NCBI GenBank assembly: GCA_025526995.1
Contig: JAHLKG010000035.1
Span: forward strand, 30,642 to 94,641
Direction: 5' to 3'
DNA from: Powellomyces hirtus
Taxonomy: Eukaryota; Chytridiomycota; Chytridiomycetes; Spizellomycetales; Powellomycetaceae
Length of the DNA stretch: 64,000 nucleotides
The notes under the pieces: generated by a model
Seen by the model: only the letters and a program-made list of their open reading frames with translations
The model's database searches: none
Told to the model about the DNA's origin: nothing
Program-made: the position numbers and the translations under genes
Shown: positions 30,601 through 54,400 of the stretch, one piece after another
Layout of the letters: every line of letters starts with the position of its first letter
Position numbering within the stretch: position 1 is the first letter of the stretch

Positions 30601-31560
30601 CATCCCGCCTGAAGAACTCTACAAAGTCGAAGAGATTCTCGACTCACGTGATGGCCCAGAAGGCCCCGAATTCCTCTGCAAATGGCTAGGATTCGAAGAC
30701 AAAGATAATACATGGGAACCGCTTGAAAATGTTGATCATTTGACAGTCTTTGCTGACTACATCAACGAGAAGACAGCGATCGCTCTTTCAGCTGCAAGTA
30801 CCGAAGAACCCCAAACCTACAAACAAGCGCTCTCATCAGATGACGTGCCGAAGCGGACCGAGGCCATAAATGCCAAATTGAAGTCCCTTCATACCAATGA
30901 AACATGGGAAGTCATTAATCCCAAATCCTTACCGCACAATCAACGGCCCATCCGCACTAAATGAGTATTCAAGATTAAGCGAGATCTGAATGGTCAACCC
31001 CAACAATACAAGGCCCGGCTTGTAGTGAAAGGCTTCGAACAACGCTACGGTATTGACTACAACGAAACCTACGCTCCAGTTGCCAAGATAGCTACCCAAG
31101 GCGTCCTTCTCACTCTCGCCGCCAGCCTAGGCTTGAAATGCCATCAAATGGATGTAGTAACCGCATTCCTGAATGGGATTGTTACCGAGACCATCCTAAT
31201 CTATGCCCCTGAAGGCTCTGGCTTTCCGCCTGGGACCATCCTTCGACTCTGAAAGGCCCTTTACGGTCTGAAACAAGCCCCGCACGAATGGTACTCCCTA
31301 CTTCACAAAGAAGTTACTTCTTTGGGATTCAAGCGCCTGGCAAATGACAATGCTGTCTACATCAGAACTCTACCTGAAAGTGACTCATTGCAGTAAATCT
31401 CCGTCTACGTCGACGATCTCCTCATTTTCGCAAAGACCGAATCGGAAATCTCGTCAATCAAGACATCCCTGCACAACGAGTTCAACATGACAGACCTAGG
31501 CGAAGTCAACCACTACCTAGGAATGAGAGTTCGATGCGATTACTCAAGGCACGTCATCTA
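27694..31560 (+). pseudogene. Copia A2 Gag-Pol, degraded
   Basis: Gag and protease are open from ATG 27694 to a TAA at 29227-29229, 511 codons. They include the capsid part (FDGTGNLSKLADFVDQLTLV), the knuckle CRLCNSNEHTPFNC and protease LDSGCSQHTTND. The TAA is the same tyrosine-codon mutation seen in A1. The GC-rich spacer (29500-29680) differs from both neighbours and shifts frame. Integrase follows with a TGA at 30088-30090 (RLHSDRG block). Chromodomain (about 30615-30765) and RT follow, with TGA at 30961, TGA at about 31250 and TAA at about 31394, as in A1. The Gag half looks young and the Pol half old, as expected for a crossover product. Confidence 0.9.
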
Positions 31561-42900: not shown

Positions 42901-43580
42901 CCAAACACATCGACGATCGGTACCACGCTATACGCGATTCGTTCGCGAAGCAAATTATCGAAATCATCGACACCAATACGGACGATCAACTGGCGGACAT
43001 CTTTACGAAGCCTTTTCCCACTGTGAAACATAAGGACACTGTCCTGAGGATTACGAACGGGACTCATATATTTGATGAACGAATACGCAATGAGGGCGCG
43101 TCTACGGAAGCAGACCGAGCTCAAGTGTTACTCGCTGAATGTCAGGAGAATTACTCACAACACTGGCTTACCTTGGCATCTACACCGCAATTGGGGAACC
43201 CGAAGCAATGCCTCCCAAGGAGGATGGGCCTGCCCCTCCTCCATCATCCTCATCGCTTGAGGGTGAGCGTCGGCTTGAAGAACCCGATGGTCCCTCCAAC
43301 TCCTCGGCTGCCCCCTCCTCCTCCTCTTCCTCATCATTATATGGAGCTTCACGCTCCAGGATGTCCCACATCCTCTTCACCTCCGCTGCAGACTTCTTGT
43401 CCGCAAGTCCTCTTCTTTGCCTGGGCCGTATCCTTGCCCTTCCCAACCGCCAGTTTCCGGCTCCGCCGGTCCTCTAGTATGGACCTCAGTCCATCAAGCG
43501 TCCCGGTCGCCCGTGCGCGACCCAGAGGCGTACCAGACCTCGCCCGGTCTTTCACCCGGTCTTTCGCCTGCTCGATGTGA
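39978..43580 (+). CDS. Copia B1 pol: integrase, chromodomain, RT, RNase H
   Basis: About 1,200 codons are open without a stop. The first residues of the frame come from the A3 LTR, so the true N-terminus is lost together with the protease active site. GAG-pre-integrase ARLGHVGKHVLEKMA leads into integrase, whose triad positions read IEHASRYVTV, RTDRGTEYF and NGIAERWHRTAL. A chromodomain lies at about 41228-41370 (EYTVEAIINERRSKVHTKEY, LVKWEGYQEPTWES). RT has FKARAVAQGFSQQPG, LYGLKQSP and FVDD. RNase H has FTDADYAGELTD, STTEAEYIAAS and ADIFTKPFP. Normal copia products end soon after the last motif, near 43070. The remaining proline-rich reading to 43580 runs through the antisense gene and may be accidental. 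This is the best preserved pol in the window. Confidence 0.93.
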   Translation, partial: DKTSLPSTVRGTVRVEVNDYPNPLELGGVLHVPGLRRDLVSVAKCNDQGVDVLFKSNGDVIFTRDGKDIAKGVRRNNAYYLQGTLLSESLWTDSEACTVEVSPTLAHARLGHVGKHVLEKMASVTDGWSVVGDLSDFKDCEACVLGKAARLPFSLGNVETREICELIHSDLQGPFRIPGYEGSRYSLEFIEHASRYVTVSPIPSKDSAVILDKFLIYKAWIEKQTDRQIKILRTDRGTEYFGEVLEYLLQNGITHQKSAAYSSQQNGIAERWHRTALDRVRATFAGTKLPRRFWPALLVAAGYIYSLTYNRINKKTPHEILFGRRPDVAHLRRIGWVAYSVLTSKGRDKMGNRAKKAYLVGYAQPSGTKGYLVWDPITDKVEVSRDVIFKEDLGLEPKYQQDPAHLDLLDEESQEDDVEYTVEAIINERRSKVHTKEYLVKWEGYQEPTWESRLSLLDTTALDDWENRVATYDVGTRRNDPIAAYAARARTQATINKDAMTWKQAMKTPQKEEFLKAARIEYQSLVDNGTWELTKRPRNKRVIGTTWVFRTKVNPDGTFNKFKARAVAQGFSQQPGRDFGDTYSPTLPFTALRLFLAYCVQHGLDIHSMDAVTAFLNSDIDKDIYIEQFEGFEDPDHPKGKWVLKLLKALYGLKQSPLLWYETLKTTLLKLGYEAVSVCLCIFFKYATDDRTPSSNDNLVLILVFVDDLLIAAKDSEILANSKMELHSKFKFTEQGRVTSHLGLVYKYDFDSPVRTLKVSNVKYIDDALEEFGMSDCHPVSTPYTVSARNQQPEDSTPFTNLKMYQEAVGVLTWASITWRWDIATAVGYVARRVAAPTNSDWNNVKRIFRYLKGTRDYALKFTSERNDPRGLLVFTDADYAGELTDWTSTTGILALYNGFPVLWKSSKQKCTAQSTTEAEYIAASTSHNEAKWLRQLLAEVLGPQPDYKSRPVPLHVDNQSAGALIQSKAINQRTKHIDDRYHAIRDSFAKQIIEIIDTNTDDQLADIFTKPFPTVKHKDTVLRITNGTHIFDERIRNEGASTEADRAQVLLAECQENYSQHWLTLASTPQLGNPKQCLPRRMGLPLLHHPHRLRVSVGLKNPMVPPTPRLPPPPPLPHHYMELHAPGCPTSSSPPLQTSCPQVLFFAWAVSLPFPTASFRLRRSSSMDLSPSSVPVARARPRGVPDLARSFTRSFACSM

Positions 43581-43867
43581 CGTTCCAGGACCCCTTGACG
43601 GTCCTTATGGTGGAACTGTCGGGCATGCGCTGCCGACATCGTTCGAATCTCCGCTCGGGACAACCCCGCAGCGGGTGCGCCTCCCTGTGGCGCAGAGGGC
43701 ACCACTGACGACGGCACAGCAGGAGCTGTGGTTGTCGCAGGAGCGGTTACCGGCGGTCCCGTCTTTCTCCCTGTCTGCTTCGCTTTGCCCGACCCTGACA
43801 ACTACACCGGCACATAGTTAGAGCTTACGCCTCATTTGCGCGGATCTCATAGACGTACCCTAGCCAT
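43180..43867 (-). CDS. Antisense two-exon accessory gene of B1
   Basis: I do not recognise the family. Exon 1 (43867-43859) is ATG GCT AGG. A 57-base intron (43858-43802) opens with GTACGT, has the branch motif CTAAC, and closes in GTGTAG. Exon 2 continues in frame (LSGSGKAKQTGRKTG). The N-terminal third is basic, Pro/Ala-rich. The middle is helical and strongly charged (HHKDRQGVLERHIEQAKDR). The C-terminal third is acidic (YNDEEEEEEGAAEELEG, SSDEDDGGG). A one-base insertion near 43400 breaks the frame here, while copy B3 is open across that point. Unbroken length would be about 210 residues. It lies between RNase H and the 3' LTR, reading against pol. A chromatin or nucleic-acid binding role is only a guess from its charge. 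Confidence 0.62.
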
Positions 43868-43973
43868 TCCTCGTATTCTCAAAGTGTAATAAATGGGGGT
43901 GTTTGGGGGTGTGCGCGGGGCTGTGTAGTAAAAGTAGATAGAGCAACTCTCTCACTGCCAGACTGACAGGTCT

Positions 43974-43982
43974 GAGTGGGGG
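43974..43982 (+). promoter_or_regulatory. Element B1 polypurine tract
   Basis: GAGTGGGGG directly precedes the TGTTAGCACG start of the 3' LTR and would prime plus-strand DNA. Confidence 0.82.
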
Positions 43983-44222
43983 TGTTAGCACGTACAGACT
44001 CTGTCATCGAGTCACAACTGCGCCATCGCAGGGCGTATCACGCGATCACGTGAACCCACGTGATCAACTCCGATATAAGTAGTTTTCCTTCCATACTTAA
44101 TATATCGGTGGGGACTTTTCTCTTTTTCTCCAATAGAGCGGGATTAAGTTACTTCGTTGTTCTGCTCAGTCAACTACCCTAAAGCTTCCTCAATTATCTA
44201 CTCAGATACTCTCAGACCAACA
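43983..44222 (+). repeat. Family B 3' LTR (B1)
   Basis: This 240-bp LTR runs from TGTTAGCACG to CAGACCAACA. CACGTG lies at 44047-44052 and 44057-44062, spaced 10 bp, in the palindrome GATCACGTG-AACC-CACGTGATC. A TATA-like GATATAAG follows at about 44072. The right edge joins B2 integrase sequence. Confidence 0.93.
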
Positions 44223-44887
44223 GGATCCCATACCAGATACCCCTTGGTACCTGAGGGTTGAGCATAGCCTACCAAGTAAGCCTTCTTTGCTCGATTTCCC
44301 ATTTTATCGCGTCCTTTGCTTGTTAGAACGGAATACGCCACGCAACCGATACGCCGAAGATGGGCGACATCAGGACGCCGGCCAAAAAAGATTTCATGCG
44401 GCGTCTTCTTGTTGATGCGGTTGTATGTAAGGGAATAGATGTAACCAGCCGCTACCAGTAGAGCAGGCCAGAACCTTCGGGGTAGTTTCGTATCCGCGAA
44501 GGTGGCACGGACCCTGTCCAGCGCTGTGCGATGCCATTGTTCAGCAATCCCATTTTGCTGACTCGAATAGGCCGCGGACGTTTGATGAGTGATACCATTT
44601 TTCAATAGGTACTGTAGAACCTCGCCAAAGTATTCGGTGCCTCGATCCGTACATAGAATCTTGATTTGTCGGTCAGTCTGTTTCTCAATCCAAGCCTTGT
44701 AGATGAGAAACTTTTCGAGTATGACTGCTGAATCCTTTGAAGGAATAGGGAAAACAGTCACATATCTGGATGTGTGTTCAATGAACTCCAGCGAATAGCG
44801 TGATCCTTCATAACCAGGGATACGAAATGGTCCCTGTAGGTCTGAATGAATCAGCTCACAGATCTCCCTGGTTTTCAACATTACCAA
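44223..44887 (-). pseudogene. Copia B2 integrase, truncated
   Basis: The integrase core is open for about 220 codons (REICELIHSDLQGPFRIPG to YLVWDPV) with HTSRYVTVFP, CTDRGTEYF and NGIAEQWHRTAL. The usual ERWHRT or ERFNRT reads EQWHRT. The frame differs from the upstream protease frame because of an extra A in the run GTTGAAAACC near 44876. B1 has three A there. B3 carries the same extra base. The gene ends where the B1 LTR enters. Confidence 0.9.
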
Positions 44888-45735
44888 GGGAGAATGGAAG
44901 ACGAGCGGCTTTTCCTAGCACGCAGGCTTCACAATATTTGAAGTCGCTTAGATCCCCCACTACGGACCAACCGTCCGTAACCGATGCCATCTTCTCCAGG
45001 ACGTGTTTGCCAACGTGTCCAAGACGAGCATGAGCGAGTGTAGGAGAGACTTCGACAGTGCATGCTTCTGAATCTGACCACAGACTTTCAGACAGCAGCG
45101 TACCTTGCAGGTAATACGCGTTGTTGCGGCGTACGCCTTTGGCGATATCTTTGCCGTCTCGCGTGAATATGACGTCTCCATTCGACTTGAAGAGCACGTC
45201 AACGCCTTGATCATTGCATTTCGCTACCGATACGAGATCTCGTCGTAATCCTGGCACATGCAGGACTCCGCCCAATTCGAGCGGATTCGGATAGTCGTTA
45301 ACTTCTACTCGTACCATACCTCGAACTGTAGAGGGTAGTGATGTTCTGTCAGCAAGCATAACAGCTCTGACATCACTGTACACAGTTGAGTGATCCAAGG
45401 TCGCTTTGTGAGGTGTCATGTGGTCCGTAGCGCCAGAGTCAATGAGGGCTTCATACGGTTGTTCTTGGCGGACCCAGACGTGTAATGCTTCCACAGCATT
45501 TGTGCTAACAGCACCATCAGACGACTGCTTCGTCTTGTTCTTCTCCATCTCGGATTTGAACTTCTTTAACACTTCGCACTCCTGTGTTCGGTGTTTAGGA
45601 TCTCCACAGGCCCAACAACCCGACTTTTGGGTTTGGCCTTTGTTTGATGGAGTAGATTCCTTGTCCTTCTTGCCGTTCGTTGACTTATCCCCGTGGTTCT
45701 TGCCACCCTTTTGTTTCTTAGAGGCCGCGTATCTG
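44888..45735 (-). pseudogene. Copia B2 zinc knuckle, protease and GAG-pre-integrase
   Basis: This frame holds the knuckle CWACGDPKHRTQEC (about 45610) and a lysine-rich stretch. The aspartic protease has YEALIDSGATDHMTPHK (about 45455), with the substrate-cleft region and VPGLRRDLVSVAKC following. GAG-pre-integrase ARLGHVGKHVLEKM and the CEACVLGKAARLPFS block come last. It ends at the extra-A frameshift near 44876. The join to Gag upstream is also out of frame: relative to B3, B2 lacks about 20 bases near 45737. The active site is intact. Confidence 0.88.
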
Positions 45736-47002
45736 TTGTGGTCCCGCTAGGTTTCTTAGCCATGTTGGCGGCAATCCTGGATGCAGCGGCCTGTAAACTG
45801 CTCAAATCAGTTATGTTTTCTTCATTAGCCTGAACCAAGGCCGCAAGGTCTGGTGTTAGCGCGTTGATGAAGTAATCCTGAAGGATGTAAACCGGTGTCT
45901 TCAGCAGAGAAAATGCCAGCATGTTAAACTGAGTGATGTACTCATCCATGCGGCCTTTGGGACGCAATTCCCGTAATTTCTGCAGCAAATCCCTAGTGTG
46001 GTTTCGTGGCGCGAACCGCACCAGAAGGGCGGACCTAGGACCGGTGTTGGTTCTGCCTGAATCAACGTCTTCAAAGTCATGCCACGTTGTAATTTCGTTC
46101 CTTTTATTTGGTGAGAGCGACTGCCACCAAGTGTATGCCCATCCTGTGAGTTTCGTAGCCACAAAATCTACAAGAAACTCGGGCGGAACCATTTCGTACT
46201 TCACAACTGTCTCACTCTTGTCGATGAACGTTCGAAGTTTGACCATATTGGCTTCCCCGTTATAAGATCCAATATCTTTCAGCGTCCCATCCACGAACGC
46301 CTTCGCACCTCGACTGTCGACGATTTTGGTCGTCACGCTGTGTATGCTCGATGTCGGTGATGTAGGGCGGCGTTCGAATGGAGAACGTTGGTATTCCTGT
46401 TGAGCTCCAATCTCCTGATTGTACTCTGTCCACGGTGCAGCGAACCCGTCGTTGCGAGTGGGTGATGGTGTGCGTACGCGCCGTTGCGCCATACGCACCT
46501 GAGGGTTGATCGGGACGTTCACATCCTGATCCATGCGCCATTTCATTTGGAGCATTTCCGTTAGTTGGGCTAGAGAATTCTCAAGCCGATCTATCCTATC
46601 CACGTCCGCCTCACGCGGGCGGACATGCACGGTGTTCGCTGATTCCCCACTTAGGAATGCCGCTGGAGTACTGTAGTTGATCGTTCTGTGATCATCTGTA
46701 CTGCTTGATAGGGGACGGGTATCGACCTTGCCATCGCGTCGGTCGATGTTTCGGGTACGCCCTTCCAATGCGTCGTCGCCCTCGTTGGCGTCAACACTCA
46801 CAGGCGTTGGCTCTGCCAGTGTATCGTCACCAGCAGATTTCCCTCCATTGTCTGGTGATGTCCATTCACCAGGCACTCGTGCGCTTTTCTTTGTGGCACG
46901 TTCTACGGCTCGTTGTAGCATATTGGACCCTGGGGTCTGTCGACCCGTTAGGCGTCTTAACATACTACGAGTGTACCGGGTGCTTGTTTCGTTGCCTACC
47001 AT
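45566..47002 (-). CDS. Copia B2 Gag
   Basis: Gag is open for about 478 codons from an ATG at 47002 (MVGNETSTRYTRSML). The frame extends four codons upstream to the ATG that lies within the PBS (MSPE), so a slightly longer product is possible. The N-terminal half is polar and disordered (NEGDDALEGRTRNIDRRDGK). The capsid part has YNGEANMVKLRTFIDKSE, LTGWAYTWWQSLSPNKR and DEYITQFNMLAFSLL. Retrotransposon Gag of this pattern is widespread in fungi and plants. The last 50 or so residues are out of frame after the deletion near 45737, so the zinc knuckle is read in another frame. Confidence 0.85.
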   Translation of the reverse strand: MVGNETSTRYTRSMLRRLTGRQTPGSNMLQRAVERATKKSARVPGEWTSPDNGGKSAGDDTLAEPTPVSVDANEGDDALEGRTRNIDRRDGKVDTRPLSSSTDDHRTINYSTPAAFLSGESANTVHVRPREADVDRIDRLENSLAQLTEMLQMKWRMDQDVNVPINPQVRMAQRRVRTPSPTRNDGFAAPWTEYNQEIGAQQEYQRSPFERRPTSPTSSIHSVTTKIVDSRGAKAFVDGTLKDIGSYNGEANMVKLRTFIDKSETVVKYEMVPPEFLVDFVATKLTGWAYTWWQSLSPNKRNEITTWHDFEDVDSGRTNTGPRSALLVRFAPRNHTRDLLQKLRELRPKGRMDEYITQFNMLAFSLLKTPVYILQDYFINALTPDLAALVQANEENITDLSSLQAAASRIAANMAKKPSGTTTDTRPLRNKRVARTTGISQRTARRTRNLLHQTKAKPKSRVVGPVEILNTEHRSAKC

Positions 47003-47004
47003 TT

Positions 47005-47018
47005 CAGGGCTCATAACC
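47005..47018 (-). promoter_or_regulatory. Element B2 PBS, half initiator tRNA-Met type
   Basis: The minus strand reads GGTTATGAGCCCTG right after the LTR end CCAACA. The ATG in the PBS is in frame with Gag in this family. Confidence 0.83.
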
Positions 47019-47258
47019 TGTTGGTCTGAGAGTATCTGGGTAGATAGTTGAGGAAGCTTTCAGGGTAGTTGACTGAGCAGAACAACGAAGTAACTTAATC
47101 CCGCTCTATTGGAGAAGAAGAGAAAAGTCCCACCGATATTTTAAGTATGGAAGGAAAACTACTTATATCGGAGTTGATCACGTGGGTTCACGTGATCGCG
47201 TGATACGCCCTGCGATGGCGCAGTTGTGACTCGATGACAGAGTCTGTACGTGCTAACA
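47019..47258 (-). repeat. Family B 5' LTR (B2)
   Basis: This 240-bp LTR on the minus strand begins TGTTAGCACG and ends CAACA. It is nearly the same as the B1 3' LTR and has the same paired CACGTG. Confidence 0.93.
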
Positions 47259-48803
47259 GATTCCGACCACGCATCTTTCAACAATTGCTCATTCCCAACG
47301 GTCTACGACGTAAGGCGATTGAGTCATGCCACGATGACCTACTAGCTGGACACCTGGGGAGAGACGGAAGACTTCAGAAGGTGCAAGAGTCTTACTGGTG
47401 GCCAGGCTGGCATTCAGATGTAGTCAACCACGTCAAGTCATGTGCGAAATGTTTAGAACACAAACCATTACCAAAGAACCGAGTAGGACCATTAATGCCA
47501 ATCATTGTCAACGACCCATGGGAGAAGATTGGTATAGACATCATTGGGAAGCTACCAACAACTGCAAGAGGCAACAACTACATCGTCATACTGATGAACT
47601 ACATGACTAAGTGGGTTGAAGCCTTTGCGGTCCCCCACATCACGGCGAATCGCGTGTCAGGACGGCTAGTAGAGGATGTATTCTGTCGCTTCGGCATACC
47701 AGGAAGCATCGTCACTGACAGAGGGCAACCCTTTATCAGCGACTTGCAACATCGAATCCTGAGTCTGCTCACGGCGCACCCCGCTTTCACCTCGCTGTAC
47801 CACCCAGAAGCCAGTGGTTTGACAGAACAGTTCAACGGTACACTGGTAAGAATGCTGCAAACGTACATGAATAAATACTCACACGACAATTGGGACACGC
47901 AATTACCATACAACCTGCTTGCTTACCACACGGCTATGCACCAATCCACACACGAGTCCCCTTTCTTTCTCATGTTTGGACAGGACCCCCAGCTGCCAAA
48001 GGACCTACTACACCCACTGACAACCTGGAAGAAGCACCAACAAGCATTGAGATGTGCGACTACAGAGTGGAAACGCAGTTTCGATTACAAAAAGCCTGGG
48101 CGCTAGCAAGAGAAAACATTAAGAATGCCGAAAAGACACAGAAGACCTGGTACAACAGGGTCTCTCACATGAAGGACTACGGTTTCCGCATCAGTGACAA
48201 AGTGTGGCCTGCCGTACCGCAATTCACCAAGTCTGCTCGAAAAGAGAATGAAACAGCAGTGGAAAAAATGGCAGTCAAATGGACTGGTCTGCACCGCATT
48301 ATATCCTGCAACGGACCAACCTTTAAACTACTGGAAACCCTCAGCCCTACCGAAGTAATCTAACGCCAGGCCCACGCACGCAGACTACGATATTGGACTG
48401 AAAGGCGACCTGTCGATTCCAACGAAATCCCCTCACTAACGCAACAGGAGATCCTCGAGGAAGAACTCAAACTTGCAGAGACAGCCAACAAATTAACCTG
48501 CCAACCATTCAGACCGAAAGCGTGCGGGACTTCTCAAGAACTGACCTGCCGCAGAATTGACCTGGACGAAGATTCCAACCACAAAATTGACAAACTCGAA
48601 GGGGAGAACGCATACGAAGTCGAGAAGATCTTAAACCACCAAGACACTAAAGATGGCCGGGAGTTTCTTGTGAAGTGGAAATACTGGCCGGCAAAGCACA
48701 ACACCTGGAAGACACAGGAGAACTTACAACGCACTCCTGAGGCCATACAAGCCTACAAAATGACGGTAGCATGGCCGGTTCCTGCCCACAAGCCCCGCGG
48801 GTA
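47259..48803 (+). pseudogene. Gypsy F integrase and chromodomain
   Basis: The HHCC finger (CHDDLLAGHLGRDGR to CAKCLEH) leads into a complete catalytic core: GIDIIGKLPTT, VTDRGQPFISD and GLTEQFNGTLVRML. The first ATG available (47234) lies in the B2 LTR and is not the true start. A frame change occurs near 48000-48100, after which DYRVETQFRLQKAW continues the integrase tail. A TAA at 48361-48363 interrupts the GPY-like region. The chromodomain at about 48610-48765 has AYEVEKILNHQDTKDGREF and LVKWKYWPAKHNTWKTQENL. The third aromatic-cage region is slightly unusual (KYWPAKHNTW). The frame ends at TAG 48801-48803, just before a purine-rich tract. Confidence 0.88.
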
Positions 48804-48815
48804 GCGGCATCCTCT

Positions 48816-48838
48816 TCCAAAAAGGGGGGAGGGGGAAC
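48816..48838 (+). promoter_or_regulatory. Internal PPT-like tract of F
   Basis: CCAAAAAGGGGGGAGGGGGAA lies 13 bases after the pol stop. The last twelve bases of the terminal PPT (AAAAAGGGGGGA) are shared with it. It may mark the original end of the element before the extra region was gained. Confidence 0.5.
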
Positions 48839-48839
48839 G

Positions 48840-49886
48840 GCACAAAAATAGGATTCCGAACGTCAGTCCACAACGGCCAAGGGAGAACAGAAGCGATTTC
48901 AAAGGAAACAAACAAACAGTATAGTCCCAGTGGCGACTGGGACACCACAAAATGGGAGTGACAGACGCAAAAGTCCACAAACAATGTGCCGCTGATAGTG
49001 GCTAAAAGGCGACTGAGAAGCAGCGATAAACGGAAAAAGCCGTATCCGCCAAACCGTTGAGCCGAACGAAGCAACCAAACACTGATAAACTCGGGCCAGG
49101 AATCAGATGGTAAAAGGAGAAGCATAACTCCTGCCTGCTCACACAAAAATCTCCGGCAGTAAAGAGAAGACTCGCTTACAGCGCACGCATAGCAACTCAA
49201 AAACAACTACCTGACACCAAACTTAGCAACAAGCAATGTCAGCACCAACGGACCCCTGGGGAGGCACAGGCAGCTGTGCAATTGCCCGAAGTTCACAATA
49301 CCTCACAAGCACCGAAAGAAGCCTCAGGTCTGGGACAGTCAGAGCAAGAACATCCTTAAGCTCCATATTCCCTGGCCTAGCAGAAACTACGATACAAGCA
49401 GGACCCTCCATGCGACTTCCCCGGCGAGCAAAAAACAGGACATCCACTGGCATATCCCCGCTAGAACAGGATCTCATCGACATGACCGGACCGGCTTTCC
49501 CGCACAACAACAAATTCTGCTTCTGCAAGAGAATAGAAGACCTAGATGTTTACGGACCAATGATTGAATGCGACAACCCGGATTGCGACCGGAAATAGTT
49601 CCACATGATTTGCATTGACATTGATGTTGACAAACAGGATCTGGAGTACATACAATGGTTCTGCCCCGTGTGTGACTGCCTCAGGGAACTTGGCATTCAA
49701 ACCACGAGCTCAGCTGGCAGAGTAGGAACAGTGACCCTCTCGCCCCCACCACCGCTTCTGTGGCCAGTGCCTACAATCATCACTACGGGACAAAGAGACA
49801 CCCCCTGGATGGCAATACACCGTCCGAAATGGTCAAATGCATTTGCAACCTGGTTTGACACCATAGCCGCCCCCAACGCCATATGA
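48840..49886 (+). pseudogene. PHD-finger part of the F accessory gene
   Basis: The 5' part (48840-49235) reads as a basic, polar protein broken by several TGA and TAA codons. The PHD finger lies at 49518-49673: CFCKR, then ECDNPDC, the FHMIC block and WFCPVC. The spacing C-x-C, C-x4-C, H-x2-C and C-x2-C is canonical for this zinc-binding histone reader. The aromatic residue before FH is lost to TAG at 49596-49598, where a TGG tryptophan codon is expected, so the finger itself is split by a nonsense change. The nearest ATG is at 49236 but may not be the true start. The oxygenase region follows on the same strand about 250 bases later, which suggests one original protein. Confidence 0.68.
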
Positions 49887-49922
49887 TTCCGGGGTCCCCC
49901 ACCCGCTGATGAGCGGTGCCAA

Positions 49923-50642
49923 ATGGAGAAAGAGGCGATTGCACCCATGGAACGTCGGAAGTACCTGCAATTCTACCTAGTGGACAGCGACGCATGGATA
50001 GAAGACACCCCTCTTGTTCTTTATTAGGGACCCCACAGTAGGCGCGACCAAGCACATGGACGACTACATGACCCGTGTCTATGACAATCTCTACTACACG
50101 AACCTGACAATGATGGATACCAGGATGGCCATGAAGAATGCCTGCGACACGAAAACGGGTGCCATCCTCCACGCTGGAGCCTGGGTCTCGCAGGGCTCAA
50201 TGTCACGCTTGCCTGTCATTCCAAACATCGCAGCAGCCGGATCCTTCTTATGGGACCATGCCAAGATGGCGAACGAGCAGTGTGGCCTCTACGCACGCAT
50301 GGCAGCCATCAAGGACAACATCCACAGTACAAACTGGCGACACTGGATTGCAGATGCTCCCAAACAAATCCGTGATGCCATGCTCACCCCCAACGCACCC
50401 GGGAACCTCATGACGAACAACTTCAACGCAATTTCCGGCTCCCACTTTGATGTCAACAACCACAAGTGGGCTATCATGGCGGTCCACGGTAACTTCACTC
50501 CCGGGCACAGTGGCGACCTCATCCTCCCCAACCAAGAGATTAGGGTGCACACCCGTCCTGGAGACATAGTCATTGCCCGGTTCGAACGAATGCGACACAA
50601 AGTGACCCGGTTGGAATTGCCCCGTGAGGAACGGTACACTTA
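49923..50642 (+). pseudogene. 2OG-Fe(II) oxygenase (TET/JBP-like) part of the F accessory gene
   Basis: An ATG-led stretch (49923, MEKEAIAPMERRKYLQFYLV) shifts frame near 50020 into a 200-codon open frame. The core of a double-stranded beta-helix oxygenase is visible: NFNAISGSHFDVNNHKWAIM with the iron-binding HxD at 50443-50451. HSGDLILP and TRPGDIVIARF come next, then the distal histidine in RMRHKV (50596-50598) and an arginine at 50632, near the place of the usual 2OG-binding residue. HxD-N, GGxLxLP, GDxV and H-x-V in this order are typical of fungal TET/JBP-type and related dioxygenases, which oxidise methylated bases in nucleic acid. The frame ends at TAA 50641 and similar-quality reading continues for 56 more codons. 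Substrate cannot be told from sequence. Confidence 0.65.
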
Positions 50643-50976
50643 AGTCGTATCTGAGCAGGAGACATTTTACAAAGCCCATGATACCGGGTATCGCCTCAGG
50701 CAATGGGAAGGACCTCGAATGCTATGGCCCATTGGCGGCATCCAGACTCCGGCCGCTGATGGCTCAATGCAAACTTCCAAAGGCCGTCCCCAAGATGCAC
50801 AAAATCCACCGGAGTAACATCTTTCCTCCCAGGCCCGCGCCCGAGGAAATGAAGTTGAGTGAGCGACCCACAATTGAAAGAGCTAGATGCGGAAAGAAAC
50901 ATTTTTACAACCGTGCCAAGCACTATGGCAGACTGAATTCTTACAGCACTAGACATGGGACTTGGTGCAGGAAGGT

Positions 50977-50992
50977 CAAAAAGGGGGGAGGA
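50977..50992 (+). promoter_or_regulatory. Gypsy F terminal polypurine tract
   Basis: AAAAAGGGGGGAGGA directly precedes the LTR start TGTGAAAGGG, the expected arrangement for plus-strand priming. Confidence 0.85.
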
Positions 50993-51411
50993 TGTGAAAG
51001 GGACGGTACTTAAGGGTCCTTTAGTTAGTTAGTTAGTTAAGTACACGTGTTTGTAATCACTCTCCATGCATGATGCCAGATGTACAGAGACTGGATGGCA
51101 CATGGCCGTATTCTCTGCTATGGCAATGCATGAGGTATAAACGGGTGAAGAACAGGAGTTGTATACACCCCATTACTTTGGTACACTGGAGGAACAATTC
51201 TCCTAGGTCTAGATGCAGAGGCCTGGTAGTCTAGTACTAAGGATAGAGTATTCATCAGAGCAGCACTTCGACTCTTGCCCTGAGCACTAGGCAAACTAGC
51301 ACACCTCCAGGCACATAGAGCCAGAACTCACCTGAAAAGGCCACGTCGTACCAAGACGCCATATAGCGTATATTAGTGCCTATAACCCCACCCGACCAGC
51401 ACCCTTTCACA
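50993..51411 (+). repeat. Gypsy F 3' LTR
   Basis: This LTR of 419 bp begins TGTGAAAGGG and ends CCCTTTCACA, a perfect 10-base terminal inverted repeat. It holds GTTAGTTAGTTAGTTA, one CACGTG at 51044-51049 and a TATA-like GGTATAAACGG near 51132. The right edge meets C2 RT sequence. Confidence 0.87.
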
Positions 51412-54400
51412 TCGTTCCAATGATCGACTGATATTCCTTGATTCCTGATGCGATCAAGAGCGTCGGCATTCATCGTTCGCGATTTAGATGTAGTTTGGGT
51501 CCATCGGGATCGTGATGCAGCCGCAACGCCGTTAAGGTTAAACTTGTCGATCATAGTCTTTGATGTACTATCTGTTGGTCGGACAGTGATGCAAGCGCTT
51601 GACCGGTCGCGTGGTAATCTAAAGACCGAGAAGGGAGGAGATCTCCCCAATGTCCTCCATCTTGAAGCGTTCAGCAAGCGCGGACTTGAGAGGCGGACAG
51701 GTCATTGAGGTCTGATGCAAAAATTGTGAGATCATCCACGTAGACAGCAACAATCAGAATCTTTGTGTTGTCAGTCCGCTTGATGTAGAGCGCGGTGTCA
51801 AATTCTGATACTGAAAACCCGAGCTGTTAAGGAAGGAGTCAAGAACCTTGTTCCATAGGCGCGACGATTGTTTAAGGCCGTAAAGGGAACGGCGTAGTTT
51901 GACGATGTCGTCCGCGACGCCGCTGGAAGCCGCATCCAGATCTTTACATTGAGATCTCCGTTGGAAATGTGGTGATTACATCCATCTAATGGACATGAAG
52001 GGTCGAGCTTAGCGGCAAGCACGAGTAGCACCTGCAAGGTGTTAAACTTGATGACGGGGGCATACGTTTTGTTGAAGTCAACGCCTTCACGCTGCGCAAA
52101 GCCCTCAGGCGATGAGGCGGGCTTTGAACTTCTTGATAGAGCCAGTCGGCATTGTGTTTGACTTTGAAAACCCATTTAGGAATCAACAAGATGAATGCAG
52201 GACGGTGTTTGCATGGTATCCGTGTCCCACGTCTTGTTGGTGCAGTGAGATGAAAGTTTGGCATCGATTGCTTTTTTCCACTCTTTCGTGTACGGCGAGT
52301 TGACCGCCGCCTGGTAAGTGACGGGCTCGTTGATATCAGTGCTGCATGCGGCATGCAATTCGGCAATTACGGTATGTGCCGTCATCTTCGACTCCGGTGA
52401 ATCACGTCAGGGCCTCTGAATCCTTGACTGTTGTTGAGAGGTTTCCCATGTTGGGTTTGTCGTAGCCAAGCCGCTATGACCAGGAATTCCTCTCCTCCAC
52501 TCACCGTTGCAAAAGAGTAAGACTGCGCTCAACCACGTATTTGGGGATGGTGTCGCTCTGAGCAACAGGGCTGATGTAATCAGTCTCATTATTGTGACGT
52601 CTCGTGCGTCAATGATCGAATCCGTCGATGCATTGTAAAGGCAATAGTTGCTTTGTTAGTAGAGTGGTATTCCACTAGTCAGAATGGTCCGACAGCGCAA
52701 GCTCCGAGCCTGCAGTGTGTGGGACGGTGCACAGGTTGATGCATATAGGTCTCGCTCTAGATGGTGGCAGAGGTTCGATACATTGGCAGGGGTCCCCAAA
52801 CCAACGTTGGTATGGGGTCTCTTCCGTTGAGAGATGTTGATGGCGTCCGTTGACGCATATAGTTGAACAGCCATAGCGAGCTCGCCCCAAAGTTTGAAAG
52901 GAGCCCAGCTGTCATGAAGAACCGCTCGGACCTGGTCCATGAGCATACGGTTGAAACCGTTCAGCAATGCCATTTTGCTGAGAGGAGTACGGGTGAGTAG
53001 GGTTTAACGTGATCCCATTGGTGAGCAGCTCATCCTGTAGGGAATAGTATTCACTGTCCGTTATTGTAGCGCAGCTCCTTGAACTTGAAGTCGAGATGAC
53101 GTTCAGCATACGCGCGATAGTTTTTGCCAATAATTGATGGTTTGATCTTCGGTCTTGGAGGAGGTAGATGACGGAATACCGTGTTGTATTGGTCAGGGTT
53201 AGGGAGAGAAGATTGGCGCCCATGTCAAGAATATCCTAGTGTATGCGATCCAGTGGTTTGGTTGCAGGTCAAGAGTTTTGCCCATTGAAGGGCAGCTGGG
53301 TGGATTTACCAAGGGAGCAGCCAGAGCACAATGCGTCCTCTGGTTTGATGTTGTTTGGCAGATCAAGAGAATAGATCAGATTTGCAGCTTGAAGCGCTTG
53401 TTGTCCGATGTGCCCAAAGCGTTGATGCCATAGTTTATAGACATTGCAGTCCTTTGTTTTGCAGCTTTGGTCGCAAAGGCAGCGGCGGTGGTTACAAACA
53501 TAGCCATGATAAATGGCAGGTTTCCGTTGTGGCAGAGCAGCAGGATAACGCGGCCGTCCTTTAAAATAGAGGAACTGTTGGTCGAGAATGTGATTTCATA
53601 ACCCTCCCTTGTTTAAGGGCAATGTGGAAACCAGGTCCGCGGCTCGCTTTCAGGTACTTAGAGCACGTCAATGCAGACTATAGCTTCGTCCATGTTGTTA
53701 TTGCTGATAACGAGCGTGCCTGCTTGACAACAATGAGGTTTGTTGCCGTTTGTGACGCTGAATTTGAACTGCTGGGAGGGGTCGCAGGTCGGTGAGAAGG
53801 ATAGCGTCCTTGATGATGTATGCGATGCGCAAGAGTCCCAGAGCAATTGAATGCGAGGATCTGTAGTTAGTTGCCAAAACGAGGTTTGCTTTGGCAGTGG
53901 GTTCTTGCTGATGTTGTTTGAGGAGCTCACGTGCGTCCTTTCATTTCGGGCAGTCCTTCATCCAATGACCGGTTTGTTCACAGAGGAGACAGGGAGACCC
54001 TGGAACTGAGAGACAACATTGTTTTTTCCATGATTTTCGATGCATGTGTTCATTGGCATTGGCTTCCCGGGTTTGCGGTGCATCACATGAGCCTCAACGT
54101 GAGACTCGGTTTTGGACACATGGGCGCCCCGTTCTGAGGTAAGCTGTTCCTGACGAATTGCAGCTTCCTGCATGACTTCCAGATCCAAGAGATCCTTCGA
54201 GATGATGGCCAAGTAGATAGGACGTTTGACTCCCTTGAGATAGCGGTGTTCGATCTCTCCTTTGTTCCCATGTCAGAGATCGGCATGACAAGCTTGTTAA
54301 ACGTATTGTTGTATGCAATAACCATACGTGGTTTGCAAGAGATCATCCAGCTTATCACGGATCATCGAACTGAATGCTGGTGGTGGGAACCTCAGGTGTA

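Follow-up and report, generated by a model that had tools for sequence, protein, structure and literature searches.

The chytrid fungus Powellomyces hirtus harbours a family of Ty3/Gypsy chromoviruses with a third gene (open reading frame 3, ORF3) between pol and the 3′ long terminal repeat (LTR). ORF3 is a regular part of this family and encodes, in a single chain, a PHD finger of the ING type and, behind a linker, a domain with an HxD…H triad and a trailing Arg. A decayed copy lies in the stretch of DNA analysed here (the window: 64,000 nucleotides, positions 30,642–94,641 of contig JAHLKG010000035.1, assembly GCA_025526995.1; C35 in our contig numbering), and an open one lies on contig C1. 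Our overall reading, to which we assign a probability of about 0.6, is that ORF3 is a PHD-targeted, TET/JBP-like eraser of 5-methylcytosine (5mC) that would counter the silencing of its chromovirus.

A first-pass annotation of the window, made from the sequence alone, had placed a PHD finger and a 2-oxoglutarate (2OG)-Fe(II) oxygenase core between the chromodomain stop and the polypurine tract (PPT) and LTR of a Gypsy element. The place is right, as the chromodomain frame is closed by TAG 48802–48804 and the 2.1-kb module is bounded downstream by the PPT and LTR (Table 1); the positions given for HxD (50443–50451) and the distal His (50596–50598) are exact. In the window the HxD motif reads HFD and is followed by V-N-N, with E-E-R-Y-T at 50626–50640. 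The copy is decayed, as had been claimed: ORF3 is broken by TAG 49596, TGA 49884 and TAA 50641, by a frameshift near 50000 and by at least one more behind 50640, and the Trp codon beside FH in the PHD finger reads TAG. In a profile check of the window module, the second half of the PHD finger reached 18.4 bits (Pfam cut-off 24) and the oxygenase part had no Pfam match, at E 1 or at E 10. The PHD finger is borne out by the C1 copy, and the central claim, a Gypsy element with a PHD and 2OG-oxygenase gene between pol and 3′ LTR, by selection and by other copies of the family; absence of the region from those copies had been named as grounds for dropping the idea, and in them it is present at the corresponding position, under selection.

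The C1 copy of ORF3 (L025:1587-3278, minus strand; 85% identical to the window copy) is open over 563 codons from stop to stop, and over 560 counted from its first ATG. It belongs to a 10.55-kb element (C1:1828591-1839141) with two 434-bp LTRs (TG…CA, 9/434 differences) and a CTAC target-site duplication at both edges. The gene order is gag with a zinc knuckle, a Dam-like domain, reverse transcriptase (RT), RNase H, integrase, chromodomain and ORF3, with Pfam matches falling in the order zf-CCHC (6.2e-6), RVT_1 (1e-27), RT_RNaseH (4.6e-26), rve (2.7e-10) and Chromo (7.7e-16). LTRs with a target-site duplication and the order gag–RT–RNase H–integrase–chromodomain make this a Ty3/Gypsy chromovirus. 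A protease was seen by eye only (DTAA; no Pfam match), pol looks interrupted here as well, and TTTGGGGGCTCAGCCGAG stands directly 3′ of the 5′ LTR, as a candidate primer-binding site.

The genome (29.26 Mb, 60 contigs) has 15 matches to Zn_clus, which marks it as fungal, since none of 14 control genomes gave a match; a search for hydrophobin, another fungal marker, had no match in it, nor in any control. Searching the genome with the module at the DNA level gave 23 matching pieces. From an integrase–chromodomain search, in which 86 of 544 candidates were scored and the family may thus be larger, matches of at least 52% identity were obtained at 14 places; other Gypsy integrases were clearly apart, with 25–32% identity in the core and no more than 44% in the short zinc-binding piece. 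We grouped the 14 places by hand into 11 insertions, counting C35 and two places on C4 as one, and C29:64k and C29:70k as one split element. In 9 of the 11, the integrase is followed on its own strand by module sequence, and in eight by ORF3 coding sequence (C1, C11, C6, the C35/C4 group, C15, two on C29, and C3). The C7 insertion retains the non-coding front of the module only (window 48850–49146), an ORF3 match at C17:116k adjoins the integrase but is inverted, and the insertion at C8:408k has no ORF3 within 15 kb.

ORF3 evolved under purifying selection. Ratios of non-synonymous to synonymous substitution (dN/dS) against C1 are 0.08–0.27 for whole comparable pieces (8 comparisons), 0.07–0.09 for the PHD part (three comparisons; the fourth saturated), 0.28–0.40 for the linker (four) and 0.11–0.32 for the oxygenase part (six), all taken piecewise over open stretches between stops, which favours conserved parts and leaves out other codons. 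A wrong-frame control, run on one pair (C1 and window), gave 0.18 in the ORF3 frame and 1.29 and 1.49 in the two others; the integrase–chromodomain region of that pair gave 0.14. A reading frame of 563 open codons, with purifying selection in that frame only, is therefore more than chance, and because it occupies the same place in other insertions and its dN/dS is low, ORF3 is an integral, selected gene of the family.

The only relative outside P. hirtus found in protein searches (best 8000 candidates scored in each) is P0001, a 469-residue protein on a 2056-bp metagenome contig, 46% identical to C1 by alignment and 44% in the search. Elsewhere, the oxygenase gave 0 matches to the PDB by sequence, none of 11 pattern stretches in viral contigs encoded a relative, phage records and NCBIfam returned no match, and PHROGs returned a single one (a DNA endonuclease family, E 0.24).

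ING proteins are subunits of acetyltransferase and deacetylase complexes, and their PHD fingers read histone H3 trimethylated at Lys4 (H3K4me3) through an aromatic cage. Against the Pfam PHD model the finger of C1 reaches 25.4 bits, just above the cut-off of 24, and a profile built from C1 and P0001 recovers ING4 from the PDB at E 1.3e-11, followed by other ING proteins. Alignment to ING4 (2VNF) superposes the YGEMI and WFH segments and keeps the Trp column. The ORF3 finger is therefore of the same PHD sequence type as those of the ING family, recognized here by sequence match and located in a retroelement oxygenase.

The second half of the chain has the motifs of an iron oxygenase. HxDxxN, G-N-aromatic, G-G-x-L, P-G-D, R-H and E-x-R-Y-x-Q-V are shared by C1 and P0001, which also keeps the PHD finger, and the residues of the HxD…H iron triad are present at the sequence level in C1, P0001 and the window. 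Arg 469 (C1 numbering), 12 residues behind the distal His, is identical in P0001 and present in the EERYT of the window; we take it to be the basic residue that binds 2OG. The residue three behind the Asp of HxD (Asp+3) is Asn (Asn 411 in C1), and the same is found in P0001, C11, C28/C8, C15 and the window. In characterized enzymes this position is reported to bond N4 of 5mC (Asn1387 in hTet2, Asp234 in NgTet1, Asp350 in CMD1) and to clash with N6-methyladenine; in the bifunctional CcTet it is Gly331 (PMC11040006). The Asn thus predicts a preference of the ORF3 oxygenase for 5mC.

Remote profile comparison points in the same direction as the first-pass annotation, which had called the domain TET/JBP-like. 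Pfam Tet_JBP (PF12851) is the best non-PHD match of P0001, at E 0.064 and 12.9 bits (gathering cut-off 34.9). We compared a five-row oxygenase profile by hhalign with NgTet1 (4LT5) and with YbiX, AlkB and TauD as controls, using shuffles as the null. NgTet1 scored 29.35 (z 7.0), a value reached by 0/200 shuffles (shuffle maximum 20.3), with distal His aligned on distal His; the z values for YbiX, AlkB and TauD were 2.8 (4/200 shuffles), 1.1 (26/200) and 0.6 (52/200). An oxygenase of the AlkB or TauD type is rejected on these values as having no profile signal, and Pfam AlkB has no match in C1, P0001, C11, C28/C8 or the window pieces. P0001 alone gave z 6.2 with NgTet1 (0/60 shuffles, probability 7%) and −1.1 with YbiX, in an NgTet1 alignment that sets HxD on HxD, Asn on Asp234 and His on His. 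The ORF3 oxygenase is probably a divergent TET/JBP-like DNA base dioxygenase: that identity is favoured by the profile comparison and by the Asn at Asp+3, but the Pfam Tet_JBP threshold is not reached and C1 alone does not discriminate. A search of all six frames of the host genome for Tet_JBP gave 0 matches among 5 scored candidates, and one for 2OG families of PF20515 gave no match; no control genome matched in the first and no control in the second, so that absence from the host is not established by either.

As for what such a protein would do, the PHD finger may hold ORF3 on active, H3K4me3-bearing nucleosomes, such as those at the promoter of a transcribed LTR. There the oxygenase would oxidise 5mC laid down by the host and so put off both silencing by CpG methylation and CpG decay, until the copy eventually succumbs to CpG mutation. 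We give even odds to this particular course of events, in which the PHD half sits on H3K4me3 nucleosomes and 5mC oxidation slows silencing and decay. The family bears the marks of CpG decay. The observed/expected ratio of CpG is 0.89 in C1 ORF3, 0.84 in C2 and 0.71 in the window copy, with 0.92 for the window as a whole, and it falls to 0.40, 0.35, 0.45, 0.22 and 0.26 in five old copies (C15, C28, C17, C6 and C29). CpGs of C1 are changed by transition at frequencies of 0.19–0.37, versus 0.06–0.18 for other C/G positions, in 7/7 comparisons. In the reverse direction, with the CpGs of each copy compared to C1, five comparisons show a small excess (0.07–0.17 versus 0.06–0.11) and only C15 (14/56 sites) and C6 (5/18) a larger one. 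The CpG depletion of old copies and the excess of transitions therefore suggest that decay of the kind caused by 5mC acts on the family. The host genome has 14 matches to PF00145 (C5-methyltransferase) at nine places, one of which, C11:77k, looks by eye like a spliced DNMT1-type gene. An eraser with a counter-silencing role is plausible because the old copies are CpG-decayed and the host has C5-methyltransferase genes.

Several observations weigh against the reading of ORF3 as a PHD-targeted 5mC eraser. C1 has Phe as its first cage aromatic, where ING proteins, P0001 and the window have Tyr. Tet_JBP gives no match to C1, C11, C28/C8 or the window pieces. The HH-suite probability for NgTet1 with the five-row profile is 12%, at an E of 0.0025 for a single comparison over 42 columns, and C1 alone gives z 2.7 both for NgTet1 (1/60 shuffles) and for YbiX (0/60). 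Two AlphaFold models are of low confidence for the oxygenase (mean predicted local distance difference test scores of 33.9 and 39.2), the PHD part of the first model being the only part to reach 64–73. In the C28/C8 copies HxD reads HFN, with loss of the Asp. Finally, the old copies are CpG-decayed although they carry ORF3, and the gene therefore gave them no lasting protection.

The remoteness of the TET match, together with the equally good fit of C1 alone to NgTet1 and to YbiX, which is prolyl-hydroxylase-like, leaves some room for a substrate other than DNA 5mC, either RNA or a histone or other protein. An RNA-directed enzyme of this general class has a precedent in the Gypsy lineage of Phalaenopsis orchids, which is reported to carry an AlkB-type demethylase of N6-methyladenosine (m6A) in RNA (PMC9289625). 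We consider such a substrate unlikely for ORF3, given the low AlkB score beside that of NgTet1, the lack of an AlkB Pfam match and the Asn at the position that contacts 5mC. Quite unlikely, too, is that ORF3 serves mainly as a targeting or tethering factor, whose ING-like PHD finger would direct the element, or the complex that integrates it, to chromatin marked by H3K4me3, with the oxygenase secondary. The PHD finger is the best-supported domain and evolves slowly in three of its four comparisons, but the oxygenase half is constrained as well, and its triad and Arg are conserved in C1 and P0001.

Base hypermodification, in which a lasting oxidised base would mark or protect the DNA of the element, perhaps together with the Dam-like domain, has other points in its favour and appears very improbable overall. 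The Dam-like N6-adenine methyltransferase domain of the C1 element lies between gag and RT (C1:1835382-1837079; L045:2678-4378, minus strand) and has an NPPW motif. Its reading frame is matched on C11, C15, C17, C4, C6, C10 and other contigs, and on C1, C11 and C15 a Dam-like match, an integrase match and an ORF3 match succeed one another in this order along a single strand. A recent survey of TET/JBP genes also leaves room for activities besides removal (Kojima 2025, PMC12730594). Against this, the Asn at Asp+3 speaks for cytosine and not adenine, and the Dam match (PF05869, E 1.9e-5, 24.8 bits) is below the Pfam cut-off of 28.1.

Chance insertion of a separate transposon or host gene fragment into this one copy, which the exact 15-nt direct repeat CAAAAAGGGGGGAGG on either side of the module (48818–48832 and 50977–50991) might suggest, is rejected, as other insertions (72–88% identical to C1) have the module at the same position, 48790–50995 contains 0 inverted repeats of at least 14 nt that could serve the gene as transposon termini of its own, and the repeat is the PPT itself, its second copy being the terminal PPT that adjoins the LTR. 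The first copy is the start of the purine tract 3′ of the chromodomain stop (48818–48837), a tract also present in the C1, C29 and C7 copies and not in C15 or C6. We infer either that the gene was added behind an ancestral PPT, of which the repeat would be a trace and a scar of the capture, or that the internal tract primes plus-strand synthesis; the direct repeat around the module suggests the former.

Taken with its other domains, the element may be viewed as carrying an epigenetic kit, in which a Dam-like writer, a chromodomain and an H3K4me3-reading, TET-like 5mC oxidase act together. The two histone readers would be opposites, the integrase chromodomain reading a silent mark and the PHD finger of ORF3 an active one, and writer, eraser and readers would between them choose the landing site and keep the promoter open. 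With its Dam-like domain the element would unite writer and eraser as a natural pair, and no earlier retrotransposon would have had a TET-like eraser. We hold this wider view tentatively and on balance doubt it. As a separate observation on methyltransferases in this genome, uninterrupted frames of 698–736 codons at C13:797.8-798.6k, C50:20.5-21.3k and C30:121.4-122.2k look by eye like a Dam-like half (FNTPEWLCDLIEQFTGG…) joined to a C5-cytosine methyltransferase (PF00145), and these fusions are possibly mobile or viral in origin.

Chromoviruses with an extra gene are a known kind, and rotifer LTR elements are reported to carry ORF3s of other sorts (PMC5408684). The combination of a PHD finger with a TET-like domain was not found in print within the open-licence literature searched: among the matches listed there, Repbase lying outside that scope, no retrotransposon had a TET, PHD or oxygenase domain of this kind. 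The nearest precedent is the orchid Gypsy lineage, in which an extra reading frame with a 2OG-Fe(II) dioxygenase is likewise proposed to act against host surveillance (PMC9289625). That enzyme is described as an AlkB-type demethylase of m6A in RNA, and the plant element that carries it measures about 25 kb, whereas ORF3 is TET-like by profile, is fused to a PHD finger and resides in a 10.55-kb fungal chromovirus. TET/JBP genes themselves are reported to have spread among fungal DNA transposons, including Kyakuja, Zisupton, hAT, EnSpm, Plavaka and Helitron (Kojima 2025, PMC12730594). These share with ORF3 a fungal mobile element as carrier and a TET/JBP-like oxygenase proposed to act against methylation silencing; they differ in being DNA transposons and not LTR retroelements. 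According to that survey, of December 2025, there is no TET/JBP in retrotransposons, for which high copy number is offered as one possible reason. In its classification, ORF3 has HxD where the PE type has HxE, and Asn at Asp+3 where the AG type of Kyakuja has Gly or Ser (PMC12730594).

Retroelements have also captured methylation enzymes of the opposite sense. C5-cytosine methyltransferases are described in LINE and DIRS elements of Symbiodinium and in a Gypsy element of Klebsormidium (KnitGypsy), where, as with ORF3, a captured DNA-methylation enzyme is under purifying selection; these carry a writer, and ORF3 is a putative eraser (PMC5890265). TET, PHD and dioxygenase do not occur in the main text of that report. 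Dam-like domains are described as typical of DIRS retrotransposons (PMC3783388), which share the Dam (PF05869) domain in a retroelement polyprotein; DIRS elements have a tyrosine recombinase and lack protease and DDE integrase, whereas the C1 element has its Dam-like domain upstream of RT in a chromovirus with LTRs and a DDE integrase. If our reading of ORF3 is correct, the boundary that limits TET/JBP carriage to DNA transposons would be removed. The family would also offer a testable case of a retroelement with its own counter-silencing enzyme, in which the gene is under selection and fused to a histone reader. ORF3 further suggests how such a protein is aimed (by the PHD finger, to H3K4me3) and which base it would prefer (from the Asn at the 5mC-contact position).

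Table 1. Features of the chromovirus remnant in the window (positions in the 64,000-nucleotide stretch).
Feature	Position	Strand	Remarks
pol, 3′ part (zinc-binding and core domains of the integrase, followed by the chromodomain)	47260..48804	+	Pfam; decayed
Chromodomain	48610-48762	+	Pfam Chromo 8.2e-18
Internal purine tract	48818..48837	+	14 nt 3′ of chromodomain stop
Decayed ORF3, homologous to the 563-codon frame of C1	49236..50850	+	ATG 49236; 3′ end approximate (frame broken)
ING-type PHD finger	49515..49673	+	Pfam PHD; cut by TAG 49596-49598
Open 213-codon piece with 2OG-Fe(II) oxygenase core	50002..50640	+	
PPT, AAAAAGGGGGGAGGA	50978..50992	+	Directly 5′ of 3′ LTR
3′ LTR, 419 bp, TGTGAAAGGG...CCCTTTCACA	50993..51411	+	

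The window copy as a whole (47260–51411) represents a Ty3/Gypsy chromovirus by its 3′ part, running from integrase through chromodomain, module and PPT to LTR. Its integrase is recognized by Integrase_H2C2 (4.6e-19) and by rve (4.1e-5, under the rve cut-off). On the left the remnant adjoins a Copia fragment that ends at 47258. The 5′ half is missing: of the C1 element upstream of the integrase, the LTR only is matched in the window (matches longer than 80 bp), and the window contains no second copy of the 419-bp 3′ LTR.

The copies on C4 are rejected as independent insertions on the strength of 100% identity and common flanks. C4:520400-524450 equals window 43324–47374 at 100% identity, and flanks behind the LTR also match between the window and C4:525k. 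These two are therefore duplicates of one insertion, as is C4:606k, in which the flank is kept at 98.4% identity overall. Between window and C4 copies the 3′ LTR reaches an identity of about 93% only, although the module is 99–100% identical. Near-identity extends to large duplications of this transposon-rich stretch, window 43324–52516 corresponding to C4:520400-529568 and to C4:604174-609352 (opposite-strand places on C4), which are either segmental duplications or a retained haplotype contig. Remnants of ORF3 at C28:7.6-23.6k and C8:384.9-392.4k adjoin sequence that is repeated elsewhere in the window and recur mostly at a spacing of about 6.64 kb, which suggests that on both contigs a nested block was duplicated in tandem.

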